DNA from: Halorientalis regularis
GTDB lineage: Archaea > Halobacteriota > Halobacteria > Halobacteriales > Haloarculaceae
Direction of reading: 5' to 3'
Assembly (NCBI RefSeq): GCF_023698535.1
Contig: NZ_JALJCL010000011.1
Location: forward strand, 1 to 64,000
Length of the DNA: 64,000 bases
The notes beneath the pieces were generated by a model. The model was not told where the DNA came from, made no database searches, and saw only the letters and a list, made by a program, of their open reading frames with translations. Numbering within the stretch: position 1 is the stretch's first letter; the number at the start of each line of letters is the position of its first letter. This document shows, in pieces, positions 335 to 7,085 of this stretch. The translations under genes were made by a program, and so were the position numbers.

Positions 335-1753
335 ATGTCATCCGACGCCGATCAGGGGGAGCGGGCGGCTGGCGAGTCGACTGGGGCGACAACATCGGCG
401 GACGCGACCGACGCGCCGCTCGCACCGTACCCGCCGAATCTCGATCCGCCGTGGTTGCACTTCACGGGGATGATGGCGGATCTGATCGACTTCGGTGAGC
501 GGGCGCTGGCGACGCGTGATGTCTGTCGCGTGCGGATGCTGGGTCGTGGCGACCAGTACGCCGTGGGGCATCCCGATCACATCAAACGTGTCCTCGTCAC
601 GGAGCGGGAGAAGTTCCGCAAATCACGGGACTTCCGCATCGCCTTCGGGGAGGGACTGTTGACGGTCGAGGGCGAGGAGTGGCGGGCACAGCGGGACGCG
701 ATGCAACCCCTGTTCACCCGGGATAGCGTGCTGGGCTACGCGGACGGCATCGTCGAGCAGGTCCAGCGACGGGTCGACCGCTGGGCGGACGGGCAGCGGC
801 TGGACCTCCAGCGGGAGTTCACCGATCTGGCACTGGACGTCCTCTTCGCGACGGTGCTGGGGCGGGAACTCGAACTGGACGGCGACCGGCGGTTGCGCGA
901 GAGTGCCGAACACCTTCACGAGTGGTTCCAGCCCACGTCGTATCTCCTGCCCGAGTGGATGCCGACGCCCGCACGCCGGCGGTTCAAGCGGGCCAAGCGG
1001 ACGCTCGAAGCGGAGGCCGAGCGCCTCCTCGACGAACGCGCCGGGGAGGCACCGGCCGATCCCGCCGAGGCCGAGGACCTGCTGTCCCTGCTGGTCGGGT
1101 TGCGCGAGGCCGGAGTCGCGGATTCGGGAATGCTGACCGACGAGCGGTTGCGCGATCAGATGGTGACCATCGTCTTCGCCGGTCACGACACCACCACGAC
1201 GACGCTGACGTTCAGCTTCTGGGCGCTGGCGAACCACCCCGAGATTCGCGAGCGGTTCCACGCCGAAATCGACGCGCTGGACGGGCCGCCGACGGTCGAC
1301 GACCTGGACGACCTGCCGGTCACGGAACGGGTCGTGACCGAGACGTTGCGGCTGTATCCGCCGGTGTACCAACTGCCTCGTCTGACGACCGAGCCGGTCG
1401 TCTTCGACGGATATCGGGTGCCAGAAGACGAACTGGTCGGGCTGGCGATCCGACACGTCCACCGCGACCCGCGGTTCTACGACGACCCCGATACGTTCCG
1501 GCCGTCGCGGTGGGACGGCGACCTCCGATCCGAACTCCACGACTTCGCGTACGCGCCGTTCGGGGGCGGCCCACGCATCTGTATCGGTCGGCAGTTCGCG
1601 CTCTTGGAGGCGAAACTGACGCTGGCGACCATCGGACAGCAGTACGATCTGGGCTGGCTGGGCGAGAACGACGCCGACGGCGAACCACCGGTCTCGCCGG
1701 AGATGACCCTCCGGATGGAACCGGGCCAGGAGTTCCTGGTGACCGAGCGCTGA
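335..1753 (+). CDS. Cytochrome P450
   Basis: A 472-residue haem-thiolate monooxygenase, soluble, with no signal or membrane segment. All P450 landmarks are present: the I-helix AGHDTT oxygen-activation motif near residues 279-285, the K-helix ExxR (ETLR) near 336-339, and the haem loop FGGGPRICIG near 408-417, whose Cys is the iron ligand. It resembles the CYP174-like haloarchaeal P450s, whose natural substrate and redox partner are not established; no ferredoxin or reductase gene is adjacent. The ATG at 335 is chosen because the first 39 residues of the longer frame look non-coding and a TATA element sits 26 nt upstream. Its stop at 1751-1753 abuts the convergent ASCH gene. Confidence 0.93.
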   Translation: MSSDADQGERAAGESTGATTSADATDAPLAPYPPNLDPPWLHFTGMMADLIDFGERALATRDVCRVRMLGRGDQYAVGHPDHIKRVLVTEREKFRKSRDFRIAFGEGLLTVEGEEWRAQRDAMQPLFTRDSVLGYADGIVEQVQRRVDRWADGQRLDLQREFTDLALDVLFATVLGRELELDGDRRLRESAEHLHEWFQPTSYLLPEWMPTPARRRFKRAKRTLEAEAERLLDERAGEAPADPAEAEDLLSLLVGLREAGVADSGMLTDERLRDQMVTIVFAGHDTTTTTLTFSFWALANHPEIRERFHAEIDALDGPPTVDDLDDLPVTERVVTETLRLYPPVYQLPRLTTEPVVFDGYRVPEDELVGLAIRHVHRDPRFYDDPDTFRPSRWDGDLRSELHDFAYAPFGGGPRICIGRQFALLEAKLTLATIGQQYDLGWLGENDADGEPPVSPEMTLRMEPGQEFLVTER

Positions 1754-2120: not shown

Positions 2121-2993
2121 TCAGTCGACCAGGCCGTAGCCGCGCCGGAACAGCTCCACGTCGAGGGCGACGACGGCCAGGGTCAGCACGGAGAGGACGG
2201 CCAGGGACTCGTTGGGCGGGAGTTCGGCCGCGCCGAAGAAACCGTAGCGCACGCCGTTGACCATGTAAACCATCGGATTGAACAGCGAAACGGTGTAGGC
2301 GATGCCCTCCAGCGCGTCCAGCGAGTAGAAGACGCCGCCGAAGAAGACCAGTGGGCGGAGGATGAACTGGTTGAGGACGGTGAGGTAGTCGAAGTCACGC
2401 GCCCAGAGCCCGCCGACGACGCCGAAACTCGCAAAGAGCAGGCAGATGACGAGCATGAACGCCACCAGGTAGAGCGGGCGCGCGACGGGCACGCTGGTGA
2501 ACAGTAGGCCGATCAGCCCGATGATGATCCCGACGACGAGGCCGCGCAGTGCCGACGAGAGGATGTAGGCCAGCACCATCGAGGTGTAGGGGAGCGGCGA
2601 GGTCAGGACCTCGTGGATGTACTCGTTCCATCTGCCGTGGAAGATCGAAAAGGACGAGTTCTCGAAAGCGTTCGAGATGGCACCAAGGACGATGAGGCCG
2701 GGGAGGATGAACGCGATGTACTCGATCTCCCGGCCATCGAGGACGAACGAGTCGATCCGGCCGCCGAGGATGACGCCGAACACCGAGAAGTAGAGGACGT
2801 TCGTGATCGCCGGCGGGAGGAACGTGTTCCGGGGCCGCCGGACGAACCGCAACACCTCACGGTGAAACAGCGTCCGGAAGCCGGTCGGGAGCAGGCGGTC
2901 GAGGAGGCCGGGGCTGGCAGTCGCGGTCGTCGCCCCCTCGGTCGCGGCGTTCCCGCCGTCGCTCGCCACGCCGACCTCGTCGTCCCCGTTCAT
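2121..2993 (-). CDS. ABC-2 type transporter permease
   Basis: A 290-residue integral membrane protein of the ABC-2 (DrrB/NodJ-like) exporter family. A 35-residue Ala/Thr/Glu-rich cytoplasmic N-tail precedes an amphipathic segment (FHREVLRFVRRPRNTFLPP) and six hydrophobic helices; the last cytoplasmic loop carries the FNPMVYMVNGVRYGFFG motif typical of the family. The start overlaps the end of the upstream ATPase gene by 4 nt (ATGA), so the two are translationally coupled and form one exporter. The substrate (drug, polysaccharide or lipid) cannot be inferred. Confidence 0.9.
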   Translation of the reverse strand: MNGDDEVGVASDGGNAATEGATTATASPGLLDRLLPTGFRTLFHREVLRFVRRPRNTFLPPAITNVLYFSVFGVILGGRIDSFVLDGREIEYIAFILPGLIVLGAISNAFENSSFSIFHGRWNEYIHEVLTSPLPYTSMVLAYILSSALRGLVVGIIIGLIGLLFTSVPVARPLYLVAFMLVICLLFASFGVVGGLWARDFDYLTVLNQFILRPLVFFGGVFYSLDALEGIAYTVSLFNPMVYMVNGVRYGFFGAAELPPNESLAVLSVLTLAVVALDVELFRRGYGLVD

Positions 2994-3922
2994 GCTTCCA
3001 CCGCGCTCCCGGTGCGGGTCATGTCGACGAACACCTCTTCGAGCGACGCACGTTCGATGTCGACTTCGGTGACGGTGTAGCCCATCGCCTCCAGCTGGCG
3101 GAGCAGGTCGGGGACCACCGAACTCCCGCGGGCGGCGGTGACGACGAGGTCGCTGTCCTCGATCCGGGCGTCGTGCACGTCGGACAGATTCAGTTCGGGC
3201 GCGGTCGCGGGCGTCGAGCCCATCGAGACGGTGATGCGGTCGGTGCCCCGGTCCATCAGCTCGTCGGGGCTGGCCTCCTCGACCTTGCAGCCCTCGTCCA
3301 TGATCGCAACCCGGTCACAGAGGCGTTCGGCCTCCTCGATGTAGTGGGTGGTCAGCAGGATGGTCGTCCCGGCGTCGTTCATGCGGTTGATCACGTCCCA
3401 GAGGTCCCGGCGCAACTGCACGTCGACGCCGGCGGTCGGTTCGTCGAGGATCAACAGGTCGGGGTCGGAGACCAGCGCTCGCGCGAGCATGAACCGTCGT
3501 TTCATCCCGCCGGAGAGCCAGTCGAAGCGTGTGTCCCGTTTCTCGTAGATACCGACGGTCTTGAGTGCCTCCTCGGCCCGGCGGGTGGCTTCACCCGAGG
3601 GGATGCCGTGGTAGCCGGCCTTGTGTTCGAGGACTTCCTGGATCGGGAAGAACCGATCCACGTTGTACTCTTGGGGGGCCAGGCCGATGGCGTCGCGGGC
3701 CTGCTGGTACTCGGCCTCGACGTCGTGGCCGAACACGGCCGCCTCGCCGTCGGTGCGGTGGGCCAGGCCGACGAGGATGTTGATGAAGGTGGTCTTGCCT
3801 GCGCCGTTGGGTCCGAGGAGCCCGAAGAACTCCCCGGCCTCGACCGAGATGTCGAGTCCGTCGAGGGCCCGCACGTCGTCGTACTCCTTGACGAGATTCC
3901 GGGCTCGGATGGCCAGTGTCAT
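2990..3922 (-). CDS. ABC transporter ATP-binding protein (ABC-2 exporter)
   Basis: A 310-residue ATPase that energises the permease encoded immediately downstream. Walker A is GPNGAGKTT (37-45), the signature LSGGM is at 136-140, Walker B LLILDEPTAG at about 156-165, and the H-switch is His193 in TTHYIEEAE. The C-terminal 80 residues form the small accessory domain seen in DrrA-type exporters. First gene of a two-gene operon. A minus-strand T-rich element near 3948 gives an acceptable promoter distance. Confidence 0.93.
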   Translation of the reverse strand: MTLAIRARNLVKEYDDVRALDGLDISVEAGEFFGLLGPNGAGKTTFINILVGLAHRTDGEAAVFGHDVEAEYQQARDAIGLAPQEYNVDRFFPIQEVLEHKAGYHGIPSGEATRRAEEALKTVGIYEKRDTRFDWLSGGMKRRFMLARALVSDPDLLILDEPTAGVDVQLRRDLWDVINRMNDAGTTILLTTHYIEEAERLCDRVAIMDEGCKVEEASPDELMDRGTDRITVSMGSTPATAPELNLSDVHDARIEDSDLVVTAARGSSVVPDLLRQLEAMGYTVTEVDIERASLEEVFVDMTRTGSAVEA

Positions 3923-4248: not shown

Positions 4249-4911
4249 ATGTACGATACCAAACGGCTAGCCAGCGGCGTTGGCGTGTTGCTTACGTTGT
4301 GGGCCTTGGTCGGGCTGTTGATACTGAGTACGGGGGTGGGCGTCTCGGTGCCGCTGAGCAGCACTGGGGGATTCAACGTATCGGCCGACTACCTGACAGC
4401 GTCCGAGGCGACCGTCGTGCCCGCCAAGACCAAGATCGTCACGCCATCGGTGCTGTTCGAGGTAGAGCGCAGTTACATCCGCGATCTGAACTTACAGAAG
4501 ACGCTGAACGTCAGCGACGTGCCGGGACTCACGGGACGGTTACAGATACAGATCCGGGCCGAAGAAGCGACGGCGGATGGCGTCGCGTTCAAGACCGACC
4601 GGATCACCGCCCAGACCGCGACCTGGCGGGGGTTCGTCCTCGACGAACGGACGGGGCCAAAGATCTTCGACCGGTTCAAAGCCTACGCCGGGCCGAATCC
4701 GAACCAGGCACCCAACACCAACGACCCGCTCCAGGTCGAGGGCAGCGACCCGGGTGCGATCAGGCCGAGCGACGGCGACCCGGCCTTCGAGTTGCGCGGG
4801 GCGAAGATCACGACCTCGACGCTCTCGGCGGATCGACTCCAGCTCTCGGATCTCTCCCTGCGAGTACGCTACGACTTCAACAACGACGGTGAGTTCGAAT
4901 ATGGCGCGTGA
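4249..4911 (+). CDS. Membrane-anchored exported protein, DUF6230-like
   Basis: A 220-residue protein with one N-terminal membrane segment (about residues 10-32) followed by a beta-rich exported domain that opens with GGFNVSADYLTASEATV. This opening, and repeated short amphipathic strands, resemble from memory the DUF6230 proteins of Actinobacteria. No Cys, catalytic motif or C-terminal anchor is seen. The ATG at 4249 is preferred because upstream in-frame sequence (from 3916) lacks coding character. Its last 11 nt overlap the next gene, and the three genes 4249-6609 form one overlapping cluster. Confidence 0.7.
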   Translation: MYDTKRLASGVGVLLTLWALVGLLILSTGVGVSVPLSSTGGFNVSADYLTASEATVVPAKTKIVTPSVLFEVERSYIRDLNLQKTLNVSDVPGLTGRLQIQIRAEEATADGVAFKTDRITAQTATWRGFVLDERTGPKIFDRFKAYAGPNPNQAPNTNDPLQVEGSDPGAIRPSDGDPAFELRGAKITTSTLSADRLQLSDLSLRVRYDFNNDGEFEYGA

Positions 4912-6148
4912 CGACACGACCGACGACGGGGCGGCGACCGACAGTGATCCGTCGTCCGGGCGTCCGGACGGCCCTCGCGCCCGCTTGGACCGGTGGACTG
5001 CGACCAGACCGACGCTCGGTGCGACGCTGTTGGCGCTCGGGAGTACCGTCCTCGGCTGGCGCGTCCTCGCCCAGCTGTCGACGGTCCCGATGGGGCGTAT
5101 CACGCCGGTGGGCTTCGCCGGCGCGACGGCACCGTTCGTCGGCATCGTCCTCGGGCTGTTCGTCCTCGCGAGGCCCGAGAAGGCCCGACTCGCTGGCGGT
5201 GCCGGCTTCGGGCTGGTCGGGTTCACTTTCGCCGGCCTCCTGCTCTCGGGCGTTCCGTTCGCCCACCCGGAACTGGTCTTCACCGGGTTCGTGATCGGCG
5301 GGATCGGCGCGGTGATCTGTCTGGCCTGGGACCGCGACAGTACCGTCCGCATCGAGCGGGGGCTGGTGTTCCGCGCCGGCCGTGCCGCGCTGGTCTGTGG
5401 CCTCGTGCTGGCGCTCGCCTTCACCGCCGCGCCGGCCGTCTCCGGTGACACGTTCCCCGCCCAGTCGGACACACTGGACGGGTTCGTCGTGAGTCAGTCG
5501 TCACTCGACGCCGGGATGTACAGCTACCAGACCGACTGTGACACCGACCCCGGCTTCGCCATCGGCGGCGAAGACTGTCTCGATATCACCGTCGACAGCA
5601 CGAGCCAGGAGACCATCGACCGGGTCGCGCGCCAGCAACTCGACAGCACGAGCGTCGCGGACGTGGAGATCAACGACTTCCTCATCTACGAGAACCTCTT
5701 CACCGACCTGCGTGGCGGCCGGAACGTCTACTTCGAGCTGACGGCCTCACAGGCCGTCGCGTCGAGTGAAACCGACAACGGCCGCGCCATCGACGTGTAC
5801 GTCTCGGAGTTCCGCTCGGAGAAACTGACCGCCCGGCTGGACCTGATCGAGTTCCCTGGTACGCCCGGCATCCCGGCGGACAACATCGCCTACTGGACCT
5901 GTACGCCGCACAACGACCGCGGCTTCGGGACGATCAACGACATCCGGCTCGGGCTGGACACCAACCCGCGGCTGACCAGCGGCCGCGACGTGTCGCTGCT
6001 GGCCCACCAGCTCGGTAGCTCCGAGACGGTGCTGACCGATTTCAAGCTCAAGATCGGTGCCGAACTGGGTAACAAGAGCGGCGTCCGCGAGCCCATCCCG
6101 GCCGACGACGGGCCGACCGAGCCGAGGAACCCCGACAAGTGTCTATGA
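4901..6148 (+). CDS. Multi-pass membrane protein with large exported domain, DUF6114-like N-terminal half
   Basis: A 415-residue protein in two parts. After an acidic 25-residue tail come four or five hydrophobic helices (about 30-150) with the pattern LGATLLALGSTVLGW and LGLFVLARPEKARLAGGAG, which resembles DUF6114 membrane proteins and is echoed in the next gene (LLRPERARELGVLG). A further helix at about 160-178 ends in AAPAVSGDTF and leads into a 240-residue exported beta-rich domain with LDGFVVSQSSLDAG and several Cys. That second part resembles the exported domain of the preceding gene. The start overlaps the upstream gene by 11 nt; the stop overlaps the next start by 4 nt. Confidence 0.7.
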   Translation: MARDDTTDDGAATDSDPSSGRPDGPRARLDRWTATRPTLGATLLALGSTVLGWRVLAQLSTVPMGRITPVGFAGATAPFVGIVLGLFVLARPEKARLAGGAGFGLVGFTFAGLLLSGVPFAHPELVFTGFVIGGIGAVICLAWDRDSTVRIERGLVFRAGRAALVCGLVLALAFTAAPAVSGDTFPAQSDTLDGFVVSQSSLDAGMYSYQTDCDTDPGFAIGGEDCLDITVDSTSQETIDRVARQQLDSTSVADVEINDFLIYENLFTDLRGGRNVYFELTASQAVASSETDNGRAIDVYVSEFRSEKLTARLDLIEFPGTPGIPADNIAYWTCTPHNDRGFGTINDIRLGLDTNPRLTSGRDVSLLAHQLGSSETVLTDFKLKIGAELGNKSGVREPIPADDGPTEPRNPDKCL

Positions 6149-6609
6149 CGACCGACGGGCCCGAGATCGCCGCCGGCTCCGACGGCGTTTTGACCGCCGC
6201 GGACGAGGAGGCCGACGTGGAGACGATTACGTTCGCCGAGTGGCGTCGTGCCCGCCCGTTCGCCGGTGCCGTCTTGCTCGTGGCCGGCGGGCTACTCGTC
6301 GCCTGGCCGTCGCTCCAGGTCGTGTTGAGCACCCAGCCGTACGATGCCTATCCGACCTCCAGTCTCGGGACCGTCGTCGGCGCGGGTATCGTCTTCGTCG
6401 GCGTGGCGGCGCTGTTACGACCCGAGCGGGCGCGGGAACTCGGTGTTCTGGGCCTCGTACTCGCGTCGGTCTCCTTCCTGGTCGCGTTCGGCGGCTATCT
6501 GATCGGCATGCTGATCGCGAGCGCGGGCGGGATCCTCTGTTTCGCCTGGCGACCGACCGAGGAGTACGAGCGGTTGATCCTGGACGAAGAGAGCGACAAA
6601 GAGACGTAG
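6145..6609 (+). CDS. Four-helix membrane protein, DUF6114-like
   Basis: A 154-residue protein with an acidic N-tail and four hydrophobic helices; the second loop carries RPERARELG, matching RPEKARLAG in the gene before. From memory this is the DUF6114 architecture, which in Actinobacteria is usually next to a DUF6230 gene. ATG 6145 overlaps the preceding stop as ATGA; a GTG two codons earlier (6139) is possible. Function unknown; position and topology suggest it forms a membrane complex with the two upstream products. Confidence 0.75.
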   Translation: MTTDGPEIAAGSDGVLTAADEEADVETITFAEWRRARPFAGAVLLVAGGLLVAWPSLQVVLSTQPYDAYPTSSLGTVVGAGIVFVGVAALLRPERARELGVLGLVLASVSFLVAFGGYLIGMLIASAGGILCFAWRPTEEYERLILDEESDKET

Positions 6610-6610
6610 C

Positions 6611-6964
6611 TCAGCGGCCGAGTTTCTCGCGGCTGATCTTGACGCCGCGGGGCGTGATGATGATCTGATCCTCGTCTTTCTGGACGATGTCGCCGCCGAC
6701 GCCGCGGGCGACCTGCTGGAGCTCGTCCGTAATCTGCTCCATCGTGCGGTCCTGAGTCGTGTGTCGCGTGATGTCGGCCACGACGATGTCCCCCGCGTAC
6801 ACCGCGTCCTTGATATCGATGACGTCCTGTTTCTCGCTGATCTTGGCGATGTGCATCTGCGTGTCGGCCTGTGCCTCCGGCGTCTGGACGCCGTCGAGTT
6901 CGACGTAATCGTCGGTGCGACGCGTCGACCCCGACTCACCCAGGAGTTTGTTCATGAAGCCCAT
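6611..6964 (-). CDS. sepF: SepF, cell division membrane anchor
   Basis: A 117-residue protein. SepF anchors FtsZ to the membrane in archaea that lack FtsA. It begins with the amphipathic membrane-binding helix MGFMNKLLG, followed by a short linker and the SepF core (MHIAKISEKQDVIDIKDAV, then VVADITRHT and a C-terminal IIITPRGVKISREKL strand). The longer frame upstream of 6964 is rejected because a TATA-like element at 6984-6992 (minus strand) lies about 24 nt before this ATG. No other division gene is nearby. Confidence 0.88.
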   Translation of the reverse strand: MGFMNKLLGESGSTRRTDDYVELDGVQTPEAQADTQMHIAKISEKQDVIDIKDAVYAGDIVVADITRHTTQDRTMEQITDELQQVARGVGGDIVQKDEDQIIITPRGVKISREKLGR

Positions 6965-6983
6965 ACCCGCGAAACCGGCGCGC

Positions 6984-6992
6984 AAAAGTATA
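6984..6992 (-). promoter_or_regulatory. TATA box of sepF
   Basis: TATACTTTT on the minus strand, centred about 24 nt before the ATG at 6964; consistent with a leaderless transcript and decides the start. Confidence 0.5.
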
Positions 6993-7085
6993 GGTTTTTC
7001 GTCAGACATACCTACGCGAACTAGCATTTCCGGCCGTCTGGGCCGTCAGACCGGAGAACGGACGGTTCCGGGCGTCGGTCACTCG

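Follow-up and report, generated by a model that had tools for sequence, protein, structure and literature searches.

A Halorientalis gene trio resembling two tandem DUF6230–DUF6114 pairs with fused inner genes

The trio and its protein families

Three overlapping plus-strand genes, here called P1, P2 and P3, lie near the start of the window, which is the whole 64,000-nucleotide stretch of Halorientalis regularis DNA that was analyzed. Their features are as follows.

4249..4911, plus strand: P1, 220 aa, exported DUF6230-family protein (Pfam, 20.8 bits; haloarchaeal profile, 154 bits)
4249-4347, plus strand: predicted signal peptide of P1 (about residues 1-33), leaving a mature N-terminus in register with the Geobacillus proteins P21/P16 discussed below
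4901..4911, plus strand: P1/P2 overlap, 11 nt
4901..6148, plus strand: P2, 415 aa, fusion of a DUF6114 membrane domain, a fifth helix and a diverged exported DUF6230 domain
4988..5329, plus strand: DUF6114 domain of P2, residues 30-143 (Pfam, hhalign and independent profile)
5171..5188, plus strand: RPEKAR of P2, residues 91-96, in a predicted cytoplasmic loop of the DUF6114 domain
5384..5440, plus strand: fifth transmembrane helix of P2, residues 162-180 (hydropathy; aligns to the DUF6230 N-terminus)
5441..6145, plus strand: exported C-terminal domain of P2, about 235 residues, diverged DUF6230 (hhalign)
6145..6148, plus strand: P2/P3 overlap, ATGA, 4 nt
6145..6609, plus strand: P3, 154 aa, DUF6114-family membrane protein (domain 6232-6552; Pfam)
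6418..6435, plus strand: RPERAR of P3, residues 92-97, at the place equivalent to RPEKAR of P2

The first-pass annotation had described three plus-strand genes overlapping by 11 and 4 nt, and the coordinates above confirm it. Orthologs uphold the start of P1 at 4249, all seven trio-bearing Halorientalis relatives share the 11-nt overlap, and the P2/P3 overlap in relatives is either 1 or 4 nt. P1, P2 and P3 are all under selection: dN/dS against relatives is about 0.06–0.33, and these values, together with the conserved gene order, indicate that the trio is not a product of chance. The closest named loci to the window (contig C2) belong to H. persicus, H. pallida and a Halorientalis MAG.

P1 matches the Pfam family DUF6230 (PF19741) with 20.8 bits (E 4.9e-4), under the gathering cut-off of 27.5, and P3 matches DUF6114 (PF19609) with 78.4 bits (E 7.5e-22), over the cut-off of 27.9. 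Alignments were made of 25 haloarchaeal P1-like proteins and 27 haloarchaeal DUF6114 domains. Membership does not depend on the weak Pfam scores, because profiles that excluded the clade in question still recovered each protein: P1 reaches 154 bits against a haloarchaeal DUF6230 profile from which its orthologs were left out, P3 reaches 116 bits against a DUF6114 profile built without the trio's own clade, and the N-terminal part of P2 reaches 43 bits against a DUF6114 profile excluding its clade. Pfam DUF6230 is matched at E ≤ 0.01 by 21 of the 25 P1-like relatives (best 1.8e-14), and members of P1's homolog set score 51–56 bits on PF19741. Judged by these profiles, P1 is a diverged member of DUF6230 and P3 a member of DUF6114. 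No match was obtained for P1–P3 in NCBIfam, for P1 or P2 singly in a sequence search of the PDB, or in a peptide pattern scan. A profile search of the PDB gave a single match too weak to use (LolA 8v1k, E 0.028, best segment i-E 0.62), and AlphaFold models of P1 and P2, made from alignments of four close orthologs, had a pLDDT of about 30 and were unusable.

P1 had been annotated at first as an exported protein anchored by its N-terminus. Export stands, whereas the anchor probably does not, since homology with the Edman-sequenced P21/P16 points to likely removal of the signal peptide near residue 33. The description of P3 as a four-helix protein agrees with the DUF6114 family pattern, whereas simple hydropathy gives three clear peaks. 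Near the end of P1 (window 4873-4896) lies a DxDxDG-type loop, YDFNNDGEFEYG, a possible calcium site, and many Halorientalis DUF6230 proteins in the alignment end in YDxDNDGxxEYG.

The fused gene and the tandem arrangement

The N-terminal part of P2 scores 18.3 bits against Pfam DUF6114 (E 0.0038), under the cut-off, and aligns to the same family by hhalign with a probability of 98.6 (P 1.4e-15); by profile comparison it is a diverged DUF6114 relative. The C-terminal part has no direct Pfam match to DUF6230. When compared by hhalign with the helix included, it matches the DUF6230 profile over its length (probability 86, P 5e-6); with the helix removed, the score is 33.1, against 20.3 for the best of 100 column shuffles and 13.4 on reversal. 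The fifth helix (162-180) is the counterpart of the DUF6230 N-terminal helix in the profile alignment. Four cysteines occur in the exported domain (C213, C226, C334 and C414), and C334 is invariant in six relatives.

A bridging relative is present in another haloarchaeal family (genome G177, family f5), where a DUF6230 gene is followed by a gene for a 663-aa DUF6114–DUF6230 fusion and then by a DUF6114 gene. The DUF6230 domain of this fusion matches the DUF6230 profile with P 4.5e-9 and the C-terminal part of P2 with P 1.2e-7. The same trio order is found in three further genomes of the same genus (G467, G492 and G509). In the DUF6230 tree, the fused C-terminal domains of Halorientalis, G006 and G177 cluster (94/99), at a point where long branches meet. 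The profile match of the P2 C-terminal part, the bridging relative, the same order elsewhere and the tree together lead to a reading of the trio as two tandem pairs whose inner genes are fused, an architecture that is well supported. The expectation that gene order would be kept in relatives is thus borne out in Halorientalis and in another family.

P2 had been described as a multi-helix membrane domain joined to a 240-residue exported domain. That outline holds, with its parts corrected to a DUF6114 domain (about 30–143), a fifth helix and about 235 exported residues. The further suggestion that P2 fuses both family parts is sustained by the alignment of its C-terminal part to DUF6230, which is strong for the G177 relative. 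The motif RPE(K/R)AR, noted earlier as shared by P2 and P3, does recur at the same place of the DUF6114 domain; only its proline is invariant among the 27 aligned domains, and, by this alignment, the repeat is no more than the corresponding loop seen in two DUF6114 domains.

The pair in haloarchaea and actinobacteria

DUF6114 and DUF6230 are held by exactly the same 20 of 194 Halobacteria genomes, and Halorientalis has 5–8 copies of DUF6114. The mirror-tree correlation of the paired domains is weak (r 0.39, a value reached in 11 of 1000 permutations). A second array of both families is found in the window's genome (contig C6, locus L032), flanked by genes that we take to be rps7-like and EF-2-like, and an array of this type is also present in f5 genomes. 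Like the trio, it consists of tandem pairs of the same families; unlike the trio, it is unfused, one of its DUF6230 proteins carries five PKD domains (L032:7044-9023), and its DUF6114 tails have F[IV]W motifs. Some predicted cytoplasmic tails of DUF6114 proteins repeat F[IV]W[GQ] (L032:9085-9768, L035:8915-9520 and L037:9660-10415), which looks from its sequence like a motif binding a cytoplasmic partner, and the DUF6114 type next to these ends in NEDVQFSWQG[DE]Q.

At many loci, a third exported protein with conserved cysteines follows DUF6114, and in G607 it is fused to DUF6114 (hhalign probability 98.6). A relationship of this third protein to DUF6230 was considered and rejected, its similarity showing nothing specific beyond the N-terminal helix. 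Two such proteins (L133:1877-3358 and L041:5303-7180) have C-terminal ends made of long Thr/Asp-rich repeats (DDTTDTV) that perhaps form stalks through the S-layer. Other forms occur as well. A solo DUF6230 gene, with a thyX-like gene as its neighbor, carries a frameshift in the window's genome (L122:6235-6795, G000 contig C11) and is intact in G005 and G006 (L123, L124). A 668-aa protein (L078:7579-9585) consists of repeated membrane units and a C-terminal DUF6114, of which Pfam recognizes the DUF6114 part only; apparent single membrane units are encoded by separate genes near DUF6230 in G147 and G011 (L082:7915-8442 and L087:5234-5773).

Actinobacterial loci were found with a DUF6230 probe sequence and were then checked by Pfam and by our own profiles. 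DUF6230 precedes DUF6114 in all four loci found, which include those of Embleya sp. NBC_00888, Streptomyces sp. BHT-5-2 and Nonomuraea gerenzanensis. As in the window and in haloarchaeal relatives, the DUF6230 gene lies directly upstream of the DUF6114 gene on the same strand. The trio therefore shares both families (PF19741 and PF19609) and their order with the actinobacterial pair, and the likeness proposed in the first-pass annotation holds for an archaeon, the HMM matches falling in the proposed order with P1 and the P2 N-terminal part under the Pfam cut-offs and P3 above. An exported domain may follow or be fused to actinobacterial DUF6114, as in P2; in two of the four loci (Streptomyces sp. 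BHT-5-2 and Embleya), DUF6114 is continued in the same protein by a helix and a different exported domain. In the window, by contrast, the pair is doubled and the exported domain fused in P2 is itself a DUF6230 relative.

Because DUF6114 is fused to different exported families, in haloarchaea and in actinobacteria, it resembles a hub in the membrane that serves exported partners. These fusions, together with the identical sets of genomes and the gene order common to archaea and actinobacteria, argue that DUF6230 and DUF6114 work together. In the literature collection searched, no paper dealt with DUF6114 and a single one mentioned DUF6230 in passing; the pair is known but uncharacterised.

Possible functions at the cell surface

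In the preferred reading, P1 forms one module with the N-terminal part of P2, and the C-terminal part of P2 forms another with P3; the two are joined in P2, where the first pair's DUF6114 gene has fused to the second pair's DUF6230 gene. Such a fusion is topologically allowed because the C-terminus of DUF6114 and the N-terminus of DUF6230 are both predicted to be cytoplasmic. The exported, beta-rich DUF6230 domain would lie on the outer face, with its four-helix DUF6114 partner holding it at the membrane, and in P2 it would be tied covalently to DUF6114. A putative surface complex of P1, P2 and P3 is plausible. At the cell surface, the DUF6230 domain would bind or pass hydrophobic molecules (long-chain alkanes or other lipids), which is its most likely role by analogy with P21/P16 and the actinomycete 'cholesterol esterase' proteins. 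The combined reading, two tandem fused DUF6230–DUF6114 modules tethered to the membrane and handling hydrophobic molecules at the surface, is preferred here with a confidence somewhat short of even.

The functional part of this reading comes from Geobacillus thermoleovorans, in which P21 and P16 are alkane-induced proteins obtained from the membrane fraction and Edman-sequenced at their N-termini (Kato et al., 2009; PMC2676291). P21 corresponds to GK2770 and P16 to GK3040 (UniProt accessions A0A098L0L6 and A0A098L147); GK2770 carries the number just before that of a new alkane monooxygenase gene, GK2771, and both belong to a single alkane gene cluster (2024; PMC10867098). The same source presents a predicted P21 model as a beta-barrel with an N-terminal helix and cites a predicted beta-barrel model for P16 too. 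The N-terminus of P21, AFPLSGVGGFTISADLI, is identical to the haloarchaeal DUF6230 mature N-terminus at 12 of 17 positions, and that of P16, VPISGVGEFXVTFDKL, at 10 of 16, both in register and neither score reached in 1000 shuffles. The sequences matched are paralogs of P1, with P21 fitting the main haloarchaeal subtype and P16 the FDEL subtype. P21/P16 and the haloarchaeal proteins are also alike in size (about 200 aa) and in being membrane-associated despite removal of the signal peptide. Conversely, P21/P16 are bacterial, and two internal P21 peptides do not match DUF6230 significantly, their scores being reached by 722 and 130 of 1000 shuffles. The link thus rests on the N-terminal motif and on size, since the internal peptides are without significant match; the motif lies next to the signal peptide, and its conservation may have another cause. 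P21/P16 are accordingly described here as probable relatives of DUF6230 by sequence. Experimental literature therefore exists on probable relatives of the family, which bears on the earlier labeling of the complex as undescribed.

Since probable relatives of the exported part are made during growth on hydrocarbons, the trio may act on oily or fatty compounds at the surface. A Halorientalis species is cited as a known hydrocarbon degrader (Kumar, 2020, cited in PMC10867098), and R2lox is alkane-induced in Halorientalis hydrocarbonoclasticus according to work cited there. R2lox-like matches at E ≤ 1e-13 occur in 19 of the 20 DUF6230-bearing genomes and in 39 of the 174 others, a comparison confounded by phylogeny and in which ordinary R2 is separated by E-value only. 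The Geobacillus plasmid with an R2lox gene has no annotated DUF6230 or DUF6114 gene, and wax synthases show no clear association (5 of 194 genomes match, three Halorientalis matches being weak). A broader proposal is that DUF6230–DUF6114 is a cross-domain, two-part surface system for the uptake or tolerance of long-chain hydrocarbons or lipids, multiplied and fused in Halorientalis, with the trio as its covalently linked double form; this is offered as a speculative extension, distinctly less probable than the reading of the trio itself. The resemblance to Geobacillus proteins induced by alkanes offers a specific, testable role for DUF6230/DUF6114. For the question of how haloarchaea and monoderm bacteria bring long-chain hydrocarbons to and across the envelope, the trio and its paralogs are candidate genes, from a genus with a hydrocarbon degrader among its members.

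Adhesion is the main rival reading, owing to the DUF6230 forms that carry PKD or PA14 domains. DUF6114 would then be a platform holding DUF6230 bases for stalks or binding domains that cross the S-layer, and the trio would be a compact, stalkless version. The five PKD domains on one DUF6230 protein of the window's genome, two PA14 domains inserted in a DUF6230 protein of G006 (L039:5188-6852) and the Thr/Asp-rich ends of third exported partners can be read this way, and the PKD- and PA14-bearing copies fit adhesion as well as they fit the handling of hydrophobic molecules. However, P1, P2 and P3 have no stalk or binding domain, such domains are absent from most haloarchaeal copies and from all four actinobacterial copies, and the probable Geobacillus relatives are alkane-induced, so surface display is considered possible but unlikely.

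Alternatively, DUF6230 could be a secreted lipid esterase of the actinomycete cholesterol esterase family, whose members we assume to be DUF6230 proteins, kept at the membrane by DUF6114. Haloarchaeal membrane lipids are ethers, which counts against such an activity. No catalytic motif was identified, and the only invariant columns of the haloarchaeal P1-like alignment are M1, G41, F42 and P66, none of which is a Ser, His or Asp. Cholesterol esterases of actinomycetes have been described as a family (Xiang, 2007, as cited in PMC4098958), and the cholesterol esterase of S. lavendulae resembles P21/P16 at the N-terminus, yet the conclusion of Kato et al. was that neither P21 nor P16 is an esterase (PMC2676291). 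An esterase is thus improbable, and the handling of hydrophobic molecules remains the preferred reading.

Two neighbors upstream of the trio are of interest.

335..1753, plus strand: cytochrome P450 (Pfam, 5.2e-77)
2121..3922, minus strand: divergent ABC-2 permease and DrrA-like ATPase (Pfam; tblastn)

The P450 gene adjoins the trio in L034, L036, L044/L047 (same genome), L045 and L046 and was not found in L038 by tblastn. No proven alkane gene lies beside a DUF6230 gene among those studied, which counts against the hydrophobic-molecule reading. That the trio is an accessory of the DrrA-like ABC-2 exporter is very improbable: their divergent adjacency is kept in Halorientalis, but other DUF6230/DUF6114 copies were not seen beside such an exporter, and H. 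persicus (L045) keeps an intact trio beside an interrupted permease gene, so that the exporter is not needed and was rejected as an obligate partner. The interruption, of about 2.7 kb (L045:4369-7922), holds an integrase-like gene, and permease residues 121-127 recur as a short repeat at its junction. Downstream, a SepF cell division gene (window 6611-7027) converges on P3 with a 1-nt gap; it lies just downstream of the trio in relatives as well, and its position is regarded as incidental.
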